A DNA stretch of 64,000 bases from contig NZ_VFMS01000001.1 in NCBI RefSeq assembly GCF_006715165.1, forward strand, positions 1,550,001-1,614,000, in the 5' to 3' direction. The DNA is from Arthrobacter sp. SLBN-122 (GTDB lineage: Bacteria; Actinomycetota; Actinomycetes; Actinomycetales; Micrococcaceae). The position numbers were made by a program, and so were the translations under genes. Shown here piece by piece: positions 6,359-10,165 of the stretch; positions within the stretch are counted from its first letter, which is position 1; every line of letters begins with the position of its first letter. A model generated the notes under the pieces. The model searched no databases, was not told where the DNA came from, and saw only the letters and a program-made list of their open reading frames with translations.

Positions 6359-6441
6359 TGGAATCCTCCTGGGAAACAGGAGGGGAAAGTGGACCCGGCT
6401 GACGGCCCGATGCCGTGCAGCCGCGACACTTTGAGAACTCG

Positions 6442-6558
6442 ACTCCCTTGCGCCGGTACTAACCGGATCAGGTTCGAGGGTCTGCGGCTGTCCGCACTCT
6501 CAGCGCCCACCTGCGGTGCCCGGCGGATGCCAGGATGCCCGACGGCGGCGCTCCCCTG
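6442..6558 (-). ncRNA. TPP riboswitch (THI element)
   Basis: Read on the minus strand, the aptamer shows the conserved parts in order: GGGGAGC, a P3 stem, GCTGAGAG (the pyrimidine-binding CUGAGA), and then CCCTCGAACCTGATCCGG, followed by GTTAGTACCGGCG and AAGGGA. These match the Rfam TPP family core almost exactly. It ends about 85 nt before the YkoE start codon, leaving room for an expression platform. The AGGAGG sites at 6363-6380 and their CCTCC partner could be the switching element. It controls the YkoEDC operon. Confidence 0.95.
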
Positions 6559-6637
6559 TCGTTTGTAGTGTTGCTTTTTGTTGGGTAAGGCTTTTGATTG
6601 CCCTTCCGGGCGTGGTCAAGTTTACACCGGGCGGGGG

Positions 6638-6650: not shown

Positions 6651-7193
6651 ATGAGCGCCATTCCACCGGATGTGACCGGGTTCGATCCTGATTCCGCCGA
6701 CGCCCAGCTTGAGGGGTCGCTGGAGGCACTGGTTGCCCGGGTCGAGGCGGAGGTCCGGGAGCTCCATTTCTCCGGTTTTTCGGTGGATGACGCGTTGAAC
6801 CTGGGCCTGCTCCTGGTGGAACTGGGCAAGGAGCGGTCGCTTCCCATCGCGATCGACATCACCAAGGGCGAGCAGGTCCTTTTCCACGTCGCGCTTCCCG
6901 GCGCCACTCCTGACAACGGGCACTGGATCCGGGCCAAGCAGCGCACGGCCGCCCGGTACGAGGTACCGTCCCTTTTGGTGGGGCTGCGGGGCCGGCTGGG
7001 CGGCGGCCGGATCGAGGACAACGCCTGGTTCGACCAGTCCCGGTATGCAGCCCACGGCGGCTCCTTTCCTATTTATGTCACCGGCGTGGGCGCGGTGGCC
7101 ACGGTCACCGTCTCCGGATTGCCGCAGCTGCAGGACCATGACCTGGTGGTGGAAGCGCTGCGCGACATCTTGGGGTCAGCCCTGTCTGACTGA
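6651..7193 (+). CDS. UPF0303 / haem-degrading-domain family protein
   Basis: This 180-residue protein resembles the UPF0303 group, distantly related to the GlcG/HbpS haem-binding fold. The family-like core includes FPIYVTGVGAVATVTVSGLPQLQDHDLVVEAL (seen here as two adjacent strands and a helix) and a final helix. The role is unproven; some relatives bind haem or iron. ATG 6651 is chosen because the upstream in-frame sequence belongs to the divergent TPP riboswitch region. It has only AAGG as a weak ribosome site plus a -10 box 7 nt away. Confidence 0.8.
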   Translation: MSAIPPDVTGFDPDSADAQLEGSLEALVARVEAEVRELHFSGFSVDDALNLGLLLVELGKERSLPIAIDITKGEQVLFHVALPGATPDNGHWIRAKQRTAARYEVPSLLVGLRGRLGGGRIEDNAWFDQSRYAAHGGSFPIYVTGVGAVATVTVSGLPQLQDHDLVVEALRDILGSALSD

Positions 7194-7274
7194 ACTGTCT
7201 GACTTGCCGTTGTCCGGCTTGCTACTGGGGGACCAGCGAAACCCCCCATATACAAAGACTGCTTAGCTTTTATT

Positions 7275-7295
7275 AGTAATCATGCTTACTATATT
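7275..7295 (+). promoter_or_regulatory. imperfect palindrome and -10 region before the diiron-enzyme cluster
   Basis: AGTAATCATGCTTACT (7275-7290) is a 16-bp palindrome with one mismatched pair. It abuts a TATATT -10-like hexamer (7290-7295). It lies in an AT-rich pocket about 30 bp before the first ORF of the cluster. It looks like a MarR/GntR-type operator over a promoter; the regulator is unknown. Confidence 0.4.
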
Positions 7296-7323
7296 GTTCC
7301 CCGGGTTTCGAGGAGGACAGGGC

Positions 7324-7392
7324 ATGGCAGTCACCATGGGCGGTCCCGCGTTCGTTCCCGTCACCAGCGCGGCAGACCAAGGAGCACCATGA
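7324..7392 (+). CDS. 22-codon ORF translationally coupled to the diiron enzyme gene
   Basis: An ATG at 7324 follows a perfect AGGAGG (7311-7316) at 7-nt spacing, the best ribosome site in this area. The peptide begins MAVTMGGPAFVPV and ends ADQGAP. Its TGA (7390-7392) overlaps the ATG of the next gene as ATGA. It could be a regulatory leader peptide, a device to couple translation, or a small substrate peptide for the enzymes downstream. No cysteine, lysine or obvious leader/core boundary is seen. It is too short to assign by homology. Confidence 0.45.
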   Translation: MAVTMGGPAFVPVTSAADQGAP

Positions 7393-8444
7393 GAATCCCG
7401 GAAACCAGAGGCCCCCTCAGCAGCGCCCTGTTCGAGGTCCTGGCGCAGGCTCCGGACTCCGCCGGGACGGAACTGGACGCCCTGTACCGCCTGGCCGCAG
7501 GGCAGGTGGCCGGCACCGCTGACATTATTGGCGACGAGGACATCCAGCTGGCCCTCTTCTGCCTCTACGAACTCCATTACTCCGGGCTGGACGGCGTCTC
7601 TGACCACTGGGAGTGGGAGCCCGCGGTAATCAAGGTCCGGCAGCTGCTCGAGGAACCGTTTGAGGTTGCCCTCCGCGCCGCCGCACAACAGGCCGCTGGA
7701 ACCCTCGAACTGCCCGTCGACGGTGCCATGAGCAGCGACCAGGTGGCAGATGTCCTGTTCGGCCTCGCCGGCAAGGACACCGGCCCCAGCGTCTCCCGCT
7801 ACGTTGCCCGGAAGGCAACCCTGGATCAGCTCAGGGAGTTCCTGGTCCACAAGTCCATGTACCAGCTGAAGGAAGCCGATCCTCACACGTGGGCCATCCC
7901 GCGCCTCAGCGGACGACCCAAAGCGGCCCTGGTGGAAATCCAGGCGGACGAATACGGCGGCGGCCGCCCCGAGCGGATGCACAGCGCGCTGTTCGCCCGG
8001 ACAATGCGCGGCCTGGGCCTCGATGACAACTACGGCGCCTACGTTGACGCCGTTCCCGCCGTCTCCCTCGCATCGGTAAACCTCATGTCCCTTTGCGGAC
8101 TGAACCGGCGGCTCCGCGGTGCCATCACCGGCCACCTGGCGATCTACGAAATGACCTCTTCCCAGCCCAACCGGTTCTACGGCAACGGCTTCCGCCGCCA
8201 CGGTTTCGGTGCAGACGTCACGCACTACTTCGACGAGCATGTGGAGGCCGACGCCGTCCACGAACAGATCGCAGGGCGGGACCTGGCCGGCGGGCTCGTC
8301 GAAGCCGAGCCGGAACTCCTCGCGGACGTCCTGTTCGGGGCGACGGCGGTCATGGCCATCGACGGCCGGCTCTCCGCCCACCTCCTGTCCTCGTGGGAAG
8401 CCGGGACATCATCGCTGCGGGCGGCCGTGCCGGCGGCAGCGTGA
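7389..8444 (+). CDS. iron-containing redox enzyme family protein (haem-oxygenase-like diiron oxidase, HDO superfamily)
   Basis: This 351-aa protein resembles the actinobacterial iron-containing redox enzyme family, related to TENA/PqqC-like and haem-oxygenase-like diiron folds. Candidate metal ligands are seen in helices ELHYSGLDG (E61, H63), EIQADEYGGGRPERMH (E183, D187/E188, H198) and YFDEHVEADAVHEQ (about 272-285). Such enzymes use O2 at a diiron centre for oxidation or C-C cleavage of small molecules, lipids or amino acids; the substrate here is unknown. ATG 7389 has AAGGAG at good spacing. The stop overlaps the GTG of the glycosyltransferase gene, so the cluster is translated together. 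Confidence 0.82.
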   Translation: MRIPETRGPLSSALFEVLAQAPDSAGTELDALYRLAAGQVAGTADIIGDEDIQLALFCLYELHYSGLDGVSDHWEWEPAVIKVRQLLEEPFEVALRAAAQQAAGTLELPVDGAMSSDQVADVLFGLAGKDTGPSVSRYVARKATLDQLREFLVHKSMYQLKEADPHTWAIPRLSGRPKAALVEIQADEYGGGRPERMHSALFARTMRGLGLDDNYGAYVDAVPAVSLASVNLMSLCGLNRRLRGAITGHLAIYEMTSSQPNRFYGNGFRRHGFGADVTHYFDEHVEADAVHEQIAGRDLAGGLVEAEPELLADVLFGATAVMAIDGRLSAHLLSSWEAGTSSLRAAVPAAA

Positions 8445-9541
8445 CGGGCCGAGCGGTGCAGGACCTGCACGGCGTGACCCCCGGGGCGGAGTACATCCTT
8501 CCCCTGCGCTGGAGTGAAGACTCCGGCCTGGCTGATCTGTCGGACTACCTCCGGCGCCTCGTGGCCTGGATCCCGGTCACCGTGGTGGACGGCTCCGCCC
8601 CCCACCTCTTCGAACGCCACCGCGCCGCGTTTCCCGCCGCCGTGCGCCACCTCTGCCCGGACTCCGATGGTTCCCCGGGCCAGAACGCTTTCCCGGACCG
8701 CCCCGTCGTCGGGCGCGACGCCCACAACGGAAAGGTGGCGGGCGTGATGACGGGCATCCGCGCCTCCAGCGCGGAGTTCCTTGTCATTGCCGATGACGAC
8801 GTCCGCTACACGCGCGAGGCCCTCGCCGCCGTCGTCCATCACCTTGCATCCGCGGACCTGGTGCGGCCGCAGAACTACTTCGACCCCCGCCCGTGGCACG
8901 CCTTGTGGGACACGGCCAGGACGCTGCTCAACCGCGCATGGTCCGCCGACTATCCCGGAACGCTGGGAGTCCGCCGCAGCGCACTCCTGGCCACCGGCGG
9001 CTATGACGGTGTCCTGTTCGAGAACCTGGAGCTCATCCGGACCGTCAAGGCCGCCGGCGGTAGGGAACGGATCCTGCCCGGCCTGTTCGTGGCCCGGCGG
9101 CCGCCAACTGCCCGGCACTTCCTGCGCCAACGCATACGGCAGGCGTACGACGATTTTGCCCAGCCGCGGCGGCTTGCCGCCGAGCTTGCCCTGCTCCCGG
9201 CAGTCATCGGGGCAGCACTTTTTCCTGCCCGAGCAAGGCGGAACGCCCTCCTGGGGCTGGCCGGCGCGGCCGTCACCTGCGCGGAAATTGGTCGACGGCG
9301 GCACCACGGGACCGCCGTCTTTCCCGCCTCGGCAGCGTGGTTTGCGCCGCTTTGGGCACTGGAGCGGGCCGTGTGCGTCTGGCTGGCGGCCGCCTTCAGG
9401 CTGGCTGGCGGGGTCCCCTACGCAGGCAGCAGGATCAGGACGGCGGCGCACTCGGAGGCGGAACTCCGGCGGCGCCATGCTGGAAAGCTCCGCCGGGTGA
9501 CCGGCAACCAGGAAGCAACGACGAAAGCGGTGCAGGGATGA
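8441..9541 (+). CDS. family 2-like glycosyltransferase
   Basis: The protein has 366 aa, starting at GTG 8441, which overlaps the previous stop as GTGA. The nucleotide-sugar-binding DXD motif is seen as VIADDDVRYTREALAAVV (about residues 115-132), preceded by a Rossmann-like part (IPVTVVDGS). The C-terminal third has hydrophobic segments (LLPAVIGAALFPARA and APLWALERAVCVWLAAAF), suggesting membrane association. It would transfer a sugar to an unknown acceptor. It sits between an HDO diiron enzyme and a CDGSH protein, an uncommon setting for a glycosyltransferase. Confidence 0.8.
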   Translation: MTGRAVQDLHGVTPGAEYILPLRWSEDSGLADLSDYLRRLVAWIPVTVVDGSAPHLFERHRAAFPAAVRHLCPDSDGSPGQNAFPDRPVVGRDAHNGKVAGVMTGIRASSAEFLVIADDDVRYTREALAAVVHHLASADLVRPQNYFDPRPWHALWDTARTLLNRAWSADYPGTLGVRRSALLATGGYDGVLFENLELIRTVKAAGGRERILPGLFVARRPPTARHFLRQRIRQAYDDFAQPRRLAAELALLPAVIGAALFPARARRNALLGLAGAAVTCAEIGRRRHHGTAVFPASAAWFAPLWALERAVCVWLAAAFRLAGGVPYAGSRIRTAAHSEAELRRRHAGKLRRVTGNQEATTKAVQG

Positions 9542-9783
9542 ACCCCGGACAGCATGGAACAGAAGCCCACATGGATCAGGAAGCAGCCAGCTCCATCGTG
9601 GTGTGCCCGGACGGGCCCCTGATTATCAGGGGCGAGTTTGAGATCGTCACCCCGTCCGGGGACGCCGTGCCCCGCGACCGCAAGACCGTTGCCTTGTGCC
9701 GCTGCGGGGCCTCGGCCATCAAGCCGTACTGCGACGGCACGCACAAGATGATCAAGTTCCGAACCGAGCCGCCCGCCGGTTAG
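9538..9783 (+). CDS. CDGSH-type iron-sulfur protein
   Basis: An 81-aa protein with the exact CDGSH signature CRCGASAIKPYCDGTH, which holds a 2Fe-2S cluster with three Cys and one His. A short beta-rich region precedes it (GPLIIRGEFEIVTPSG). Such proteins serve in electron or cluster transfer. The ATG overlaps the TGA of the glycosyltransferase gene as ATGA. With the diiron enzyme upstream, an electron-donor or cluster-supply role is a reasonable inference. ATG 9571 (MDQEAA) is an alternative start. Confidence 0.9.
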   Translation: MNPGQHGTEAHMDQEAASSIVVCPDGPLIIRGEFEIVTPSGDAVPRDRKTVALCRCGASAIKPYCDGTHKMIKFRTEPPAG

Positions 9784-9901: not shown

Positions 9902-10165
9902 ATGAACCTTTTCATCAAGCTGCTCGGGACCGGGGTGAGCCTGGGTGCAGGCCTGGTCGGTACCAAGCTCGTCAACACCATCTGGGAAAAGACCACCGGG
10001 CAGAAGGCCCCCACCGGCAAGAACGAGGACGTCCCCACCAGCCTGCGTTCGGCGTTGACCTTCGCGCTGATCTCGGCGTCGGTGAGCGCCATCATCCAGG
10101 TCCTGGCCAACCGCGGCACCCAGCGCGCCATCACCAGGTTCGCCAAGACTCAGGACATCGTCTAG
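9902..10165 (+). CDS. DUF4235 membrane protein
   Basis: An 87-aa protein typical of actinobacterial DUF4235: an N-terminal glycine-rich hydrophobic helix (LLGTGVSLGAGLVGTKLVNTIW), a charged centre (EKTTGQKAP), and a second helix (ALTFALISASVSAIIQVLA) ending in a basic tail. The function is unknown; it is probably a small integral membrane protein. ATG 9902 is preceded by AAGGAG. A TAGGCT -10 box lies at 9858-9863. It converges on the Mrp operon, whose last stop is 10 bp away. Confidence 0.85.
   Translation: MNLFIKLLGTGVSLGAGLVGTKLVNTIWEKTTGQKAPTGKNEDVPTSLRSALTFALISASVSAIIQVLANRGTQRAITRFAKTQDIV

Follow-up and report, generated by a model that had tools for sequence, protein, structure and literature searches.

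What might be made by a diiron enzyme, a membrane glycosyltransferase and a small iron-sulfur protein that are encoded one after the other behind a 22-codon open reading frame (ORF)? The question is raised by a locus of Arthrobacter sp. SLBN-122, contained in a stretch of 64,000 nucleotides (nt) here called the window, in which the small ORF is followed by genes for a heme-oxygenase-like diiron oxidase/oxygenase (HDO), a glycosyltransferase (GT) and a CDGSH protein (Table 1). The three stop-start overlaps reported in a preliminary description (ATGA at 7389, GTGA at 8441 and ATGA at 9538) are borne out, and its enzyme family names are confirmed by Pfam (PF14518, PF13506 and PF09360, respectively). 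The three genes also belong together, as it had proposed, the HDO-CDGSH linkage being phylum-wide and the GT gene recurring beside the pair in several gene orders. The explanation favoured here, at somewhat under an even chance, is a two-protein oxygenase in which an N-oxygenating HDO, a CDGSH electron donor and an optional tailoring enzyme are encoded in a repressor-held stress operon.

Association of the HDO and CDGSH genes

Linkage was followed in overlapping sets of loci with flanks between ~1.5 and 5 kb; two loci came from some of the genomes. The CDGSH gene was found with HDO in the fetched stretch in all 50 loci of the same family, in all six further loci of the same order, in 39 of 64 loci of the phylum and in 77 of 80 named loci; among the three named misses, the contigs of two (L153 and L169) end soon after HDO and GT, the third being L150. 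This linkage has survived rearrangement, since four placements relative to HDO occur among 45 same-order and phylum loci that have CDGSH: a downstream CDGSH gene is convergent in 20 and on the same strand in 13, an upstream one on the same strand in 7 and divergent in 5. A CDGSH-HDO fusion that an open frame had made look likely in L027 proved to be two genes in different frames.

The whole SLBN-122 genome holds one PF14518 and one PF09360 match. Across 206 genomes of the genus, both families are present in 73, HDO alone in one (G187, 68% complete), CDGSH alone in none and neither in 132.

Assignment of the two proteins

HDO matches PF14518 with 202.9 bits, and its likely metal ligands E162, E188, H198, H284, D288 and H291, the three histidines and three carboxylates of the HDO superfamily, do not vary in any of 19 sequences, which range down to 37% identity. 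They align to positions 189, 215, 225, 311, 315 and 318 of SznF (chain 6m9r_A), which we take to be the metal ligands of that enzyme. The predicted model (pLDDT 94.8) has a heme-oxygenase-like fold and, among solved HDOs, comes closest to HrmI by a clear margin, then to RohS; SznF and FlcD tie, and CADD, BesC and UndA come after them. HrmI, RohS and SznF are N-oxygenases. As a fold match is no proof of reaction, N-oxygenase activity is a prediction from the model.

The CDGSH domain (67.3 bits) is the only Pfam match of its protein, in which C54, C56, C65 and H69, the residues of a 3Cys-1His cluster motif, are invariant in 19 of 19 sequences. A single CDGSH motif, together with the best match in the PDB, likens it to type 4 CDGSH proteins, an assignment made by similarity. 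Such proteins are described as occurring predominantly in Actinobacteria and Firmicutes, and the same source describes no HDO partner for them under the words oxygenase, operon or neighbor (PMC3174974).

The third gene

GT exceeds the PF13506 cut-off (25.1 bits versus 21.7) and carries a DXD-type motif, D107-D109 of the aligned piece, as an invariant DDD in 23 of 23 sequences. Family 21 glycosyltransferases share a (Q/R)XXRW motif, in whose place mostly QRxRQ is read here; as the final W is missing, GT is assigned only to the wider membrane GT2-like class. Of the 50 family loci 20 lack the GT gene, as do 47 of the 80 named loci, and HDO and CDGSH remain in nearly all of these, 44 of the 80 named loci showing the plain order HDO-CDGSH without GT. 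The idea that oxidation and glycosylation form a single fixed pathway, put forward in the preliminary description, is thus unsupported. Distances of GT and HDO are correlated (Spearman 0.90 over 28 loci, two partial loci being left out) and nearest neighbours agree in 19 of 28, so that, as far as such sequence comparisons tell, recurrent GT loss is likelier than repeated import, with some horizontal exchange possible. A HemK2-type methyltransferase gene is mutually exclusive with GT beside HDO.

Promoter and possible stress setting

Ahead of the cluster lies a palindromic operator-like site, of which the genome holds 11 copies at up to two mismatches, the reversed control giving none. The site is kept in all 16 loci with an HDO identity of at least 83%, one copy having one mismatch, and most relatives with the palindrome also show a TATATT or TATGTT-like hexamer; scans for terminators and for the sigma-70 consensus gave nothing at the promoter and did not report the -10-like TATATT. 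ORFs adjoining the palindrome copies, assigned mechanically, belong to Transgly_assoc (one over and one under the cut-off), MarR, GCS2/YbdK-like, Pyrid_ox_like and DUF7793 families, which are presumably stress genes; four of ten tested proteins adjoining these sites had no Pfam match. Palindrome sites lie at L001-L004 and L062-L068, L062 with a divergent MarR gene, and the Pfam-less protein of L062 resembles the one beside the L067 site.

SigF-like promoters were found ahead of HDO in 6 of 148 loci, compared with 25 of 7697 windows of background sequence. Genes of five stress families, chosen post hoc, lie near HDO in 19 of 112 loci, against 1 of 80 arbitrary stretches.

Proposed function and comparison with known systems

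In the two-protein oxygenase, HDO would bind two irons and oxidise a small molecule with O2, most likely at an amine nitrogen, while the CDGSH [2Fe-2S] protein, as its dedicated partner, would supply the diiron site with electrons from one turnover to the next. GT would then, in some lineages, glycosylate the oxidised product at the membrane, and in others the HemK2-type methyltransferase would take this third place. In the lineage of SLBN-122, a repressor binding the palindrome, with the MarR-type protein as candidate, may keep the operon off until stress. Stop-start coupling would yield the downstream gene products. An extension to a stress system of the whole phylum, with a NEET-type [2Fe-2S] protein as dedicated electron donor to a diiron HDO that turns a cellular amine into a protective metabolite by N-oxygenation, with GT and the HemK2-type methyltransferase as exchangeable modules, is doubtful, although conceivable.

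Among known members of the superfamily, HrmI and BelK are lysine N-oxygenases. Their identity to the SLBN-122 HDO is 19-21%, the latter differs from them in its CDGSH partner, and no hormaomycin-type genes were recognised at its locus. MboA resembles it in being an HDO encoded with a [2Fe-2S] redox protein; MboB, however, is described as an NAD(P)H- and flavin-containing reductase (PMC13185094), whereas the SLBN-122 partner is an 81-residue CDGSH protein alone, its sole Pfam domain leaving no flavin or NAD(P)H reductase domain of the MboB type. For DtpC of Acinetobacter baumannii, to which six such ligand positions are named as common, the key residues E143 and H153 are spaced as E188 and H198 of the SLBN-122 enzyme, compared by description (PMC13232832). 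DtpC also stands in an oxidative-stress setting, the stress links of SLBN-122 being indirect; it is co-transcribed with the catalase KatE, and its main text does not contain the word CDGSH (PMC13232832). Within the open-access literature, no paper linking CDGSH with heme-oxygenase-like enzymes, Haem_oxygenas_2 or HrmI was found, nor anything on the iron-containing redox enzyme family in Arthrobacter, nor anything useful on CDGSH with a sigma factor and general stress.

Weighing of the proposed function

Several points weigh against a two-protein oxygenase under stress control. The genus profile is not independent of the linkage, because linked genes are gained and lost together, and in two of the 73 genomes with both families (G077 and G192) HDO survives in fragments only while the CDGSH frame is still open. 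Among 20 genomes chosen for an HDO copy without CDGSH in the fetched stretch, a check that leaves out the unlinked loci L095 and L126-L128, 12 have no CDGSH match anywhere, and in the other eight the match sits elsewhere or beside another HDO copy; the pair is therefore not universal, although it holds well in most of the lineages seen. Because a reductase domain is lacking in the CDGSH protein, a further reductase would be needed, and none was recognised among the recurrent HDO neighbours listed (30 clusters, each of at least four loci; not all annotated, with mechanical shadow ORFs included, and useful as leads only). To our knowledge, HrmI, SznF and RohS work without a CDGSH partner. HDOs studied to date are described as needing no protein-based effector (PMC13108848), and FlcD, which is not an N-oxygenase (PMC11363339), fits about as well as SznF. 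On the HDO tree the presence of GT is close to random, a poor fit with an essential step. Finally, 142 of 148 loci lack the SigF-like motif, one of the five stress families (PNPOx-type) was found in 0 of 112 loci, and single families reach p-values of 0.04 to 0.11 only, which are moreover optimistic because the families were picked after being seen among the neighbours; the stress evidence is possible support of an indirect, post hoc and patchy kind.

Where CDGSH is missing, no replacement redox protein was recognised among ORFs of at least 80 residues within 1.3 kb at 12 loci, and of six such proteins run against Pfam, five gave Ku, DUF7218, thiamine pyrophosphate (TPP) enzyme, peroxidase and methyltransferase matches and one gave none. 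Scans with loosely defined motifs of ferredoxin, Rieske, plant-type 2Fe2S and rubredoxin proteins hit 1, 3, 4 and 0 of 25 CDGSH-less loci and 0, 2, 3 and 0 of 39 loci with CDGSH, with no clear difference between them.

The linkage data fit equally well a CDGSH protein that supplies or guards iron or cluster for a labile diiron site of HDO, or that senses redox and switches HDO. The diiron cluster is described as labile in many HDOs (PMC13108848), and cluster lability of NEET proteins is the subject of a further paper, by its title (PMC6006223); some lineages, however, live without CDGSH, and no iron-uptake or Fe-S assembly gene was recognised among the listed neighbours, so that we regard this explanation as unlikely, if a serious one. 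A specialised-metabolite or lipid pathway with an oxidised, glycosylated product and no tie to stress is rather unlikely, given that the same neighbours include no recognised synthetase or other pathway gene and that the pair so often stands in the plain order without GT. It is quite improbable that HDO is a protector that sequesters iron or consumes reactive oxygen without an organic product, comparable to options considered for DtpC, with GT and the methyltransferase as bystanders. DtpC is reported to limit H2O2 in dried cells (PMC13232832), a Mn-catalase gene lies near 4 of 112 HDO loci (p 0.11), and a KatG-type peroxidase gene adjoins HDO in L104, one of the 112; a GT recurring in several orders and a mutually exclusive methyltransferase nonetheless suggest a product, and the closest folds to the HDO model are enzymes with small-molecule substrates.

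The 22-codon ORF and the leader

The small ORF, for which the preliminary description had considered the roles of regulatory leader, coupling device and modified substrate, was compared in 56 oriented HDO loci, 50 from the same family (49 of them from the same genus) and six from the same order; the genus search had given 74 genomes with a match, and upstream DNA was read in about two thirds of them, mainly the better-scoring ones. An ORF with its ATG at -65 and its end in the ATGA overlap with HDO is present in nine of the 56. Among the 16 loci with at least 83% HDO identity, all of which keep the palindrome, only those nine have it; it is lost by indels, lost starts or frame changes in the other seven (L031, L033, L035, L011, L010, L036 and L037), two of which, L035 and L036, have a leader ATG that shares the HDO reading frame. 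Overlapping ORFs arise by chance, as 12 of the 47 other loci have one at an unrelated position (ATG, GTG or TTG start within 140 nt), with ATG in six of these. The ratio of nonsynonymous to synonymous change (pN/pS) over codons 2-17 of the nine loci is 1.00, few variable sites limiting the test, against 0.43 for HDO, and the shifted frames give 1.64 and 1.92. The small ORF was consequently rejected as a conserved gene, and neither a substrate peptide nor a regulatory leader of conserved kind finds support, for the pattern is the one that the preliminary description had named as counting against them: the same style of overlap at HDO, an ORF that is not conserved and no detectable coding selection.

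In the nine loci 9.6% of leader sites differ, compared with 33% of the four-fold sites in HDO, and this slow change, together with the pN/pS of 1.00, suggests that some feature of the leader, as DNA or RNA, may be conserved, though not visibly the peptide. Of the nine loci with the ORF, seven have an HDO start codon that is predicted to be paired, compared with one of eight loci that share the promoter or a remnant but lack the ORF, and with none of 12 others; the limit (probability unpaired of at most 0.16) was chosen after the values had been seen, and the nine are close kin. This gives the coupling-device role a weak, lineage-limited lead, to be set against folds that are mostly no more stable than shuffles (z of -2.4 to 0.3 in the nine loci).

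A lineage-specific translational switch, in which ribosomes on the small ORF would unfold the leader and so make the HDO start accessible, agrees with the slow change of the leader and with the seven paired start codons becoming more open (0.43 to 0.66) without the upstream leader part. It appears improbable nevertheless, since the ORF is missing from 7 of the 16 loci sharing the promoter, the pN/pS ratio and fold scores do not favour it, the ribosome site of the SLBN-122 leader is predicted to become less open without the upstream part (from 0.63 to 0.38), and HDO has its own ribosome site. That the peptide is a substrate modified by HDO and GT is barely credible, for position alone speaks for it, 47 of 56 homologous loci lack the ORF while all keep HDO and CDGSH, its amino acids are no more conserved than its nucleotides, and its conserved form is already refuted.

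Layout of the locus and neighbouring features

The preliminary description had also credited the small ORF with the best ribosome site of one translational unit; its AGGAGG, at 7-nt spacing, and the overlaps are real, but HDO has a close site of its own. A ribosome-site-like 5-mer also precedes HDO in 49 of 50 family loci, so that translation of HDO does not have to rely on the small ORF; among the six same-order loci, whose start codons are assigned less securely, one has the 5-mer. The letters at the HDO stop are ATGA or GTGA, containing putative start codons, in 43 of 50 family loci, with or without GT. The nearest named relatives are from Arthrobacter and Pseudarthrobacter.

Table 1. Features of the SLBN-122 locus, in window coordinates
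Feature	Position	Strand	Remarks
TPP riboswitch	6427-6567	-	61.1 bits; reads away from the cluster towards minus-strand ORFs
HbpS-like 'heme-degrading domain' gene	6651-7193	+	directly upstream
Palindromic operator-like site TAGTAATCATGCTTACTA	7274..7291	+	sole window match at up to 3 mismatches, 0.00 expected
-10-like hexamer TATATT (putative)	7290..7295	+	overlaps right arm of palindrome
Ribosome-binding-like site of small ORF, AGGAGG	7311..7316	+	altered in e.g. L010, L011
22-codon ORF MAVTMGGPAFVPVTSAADQGAP	7324..7392	+	lineage-specific, without detectable coding selection
Ribosome-binding-like site of HDO, AAGGAG	7379..7384	+	4 nt from HDO ATG
HDO, heme-oxygenase-like diiron oxidase/oxygenase, 351 residues	7389..8444	+	PF14518, SznF alignment, predicted fold
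GT, membrane-type family 2/21-like glycosyltransferase, 366 residues	8441..9541	+	optional third gene
CDGSH iron-sulfur protein, type-4-like CISD, 81 residues	9538..9783	+	PF09360, best PDB match 3tbm
DUF4235 small protein	9902-10165	+	after the cluster

Some of the neighbours recur elsewhere: eight of the 112 wide loci (L138-L145) have a relative of the HbpS-like gene in the vicinity of HDO, and a DUF4235 gene is again found near HDO in some relatives. A DUF4383 protein gene lies near HDO in 12 of 112 wide loci, just upstream in L138-L145 and upstream in other relatives.

Significance

MboA/MboB has been called possibly the first characterised dedicated pair of an HDO and its redox partner (PMC13185094), for which reason the natural reductants of most HDOs seem open. 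The HDO-CDGSH pair, linked across many actinobacteria and with each protein the sole family member found in the genome, is a direct test case for HDO reductants, and it suggests what type 4 CDGSH proteins of bacteria may do. According to its authors, DtpC is alone among HDOs in having a link to oxidative stress or desiccation (PMC13232832); if stress-related, the pair would add to it and would give a genetic system in soil bacteria.
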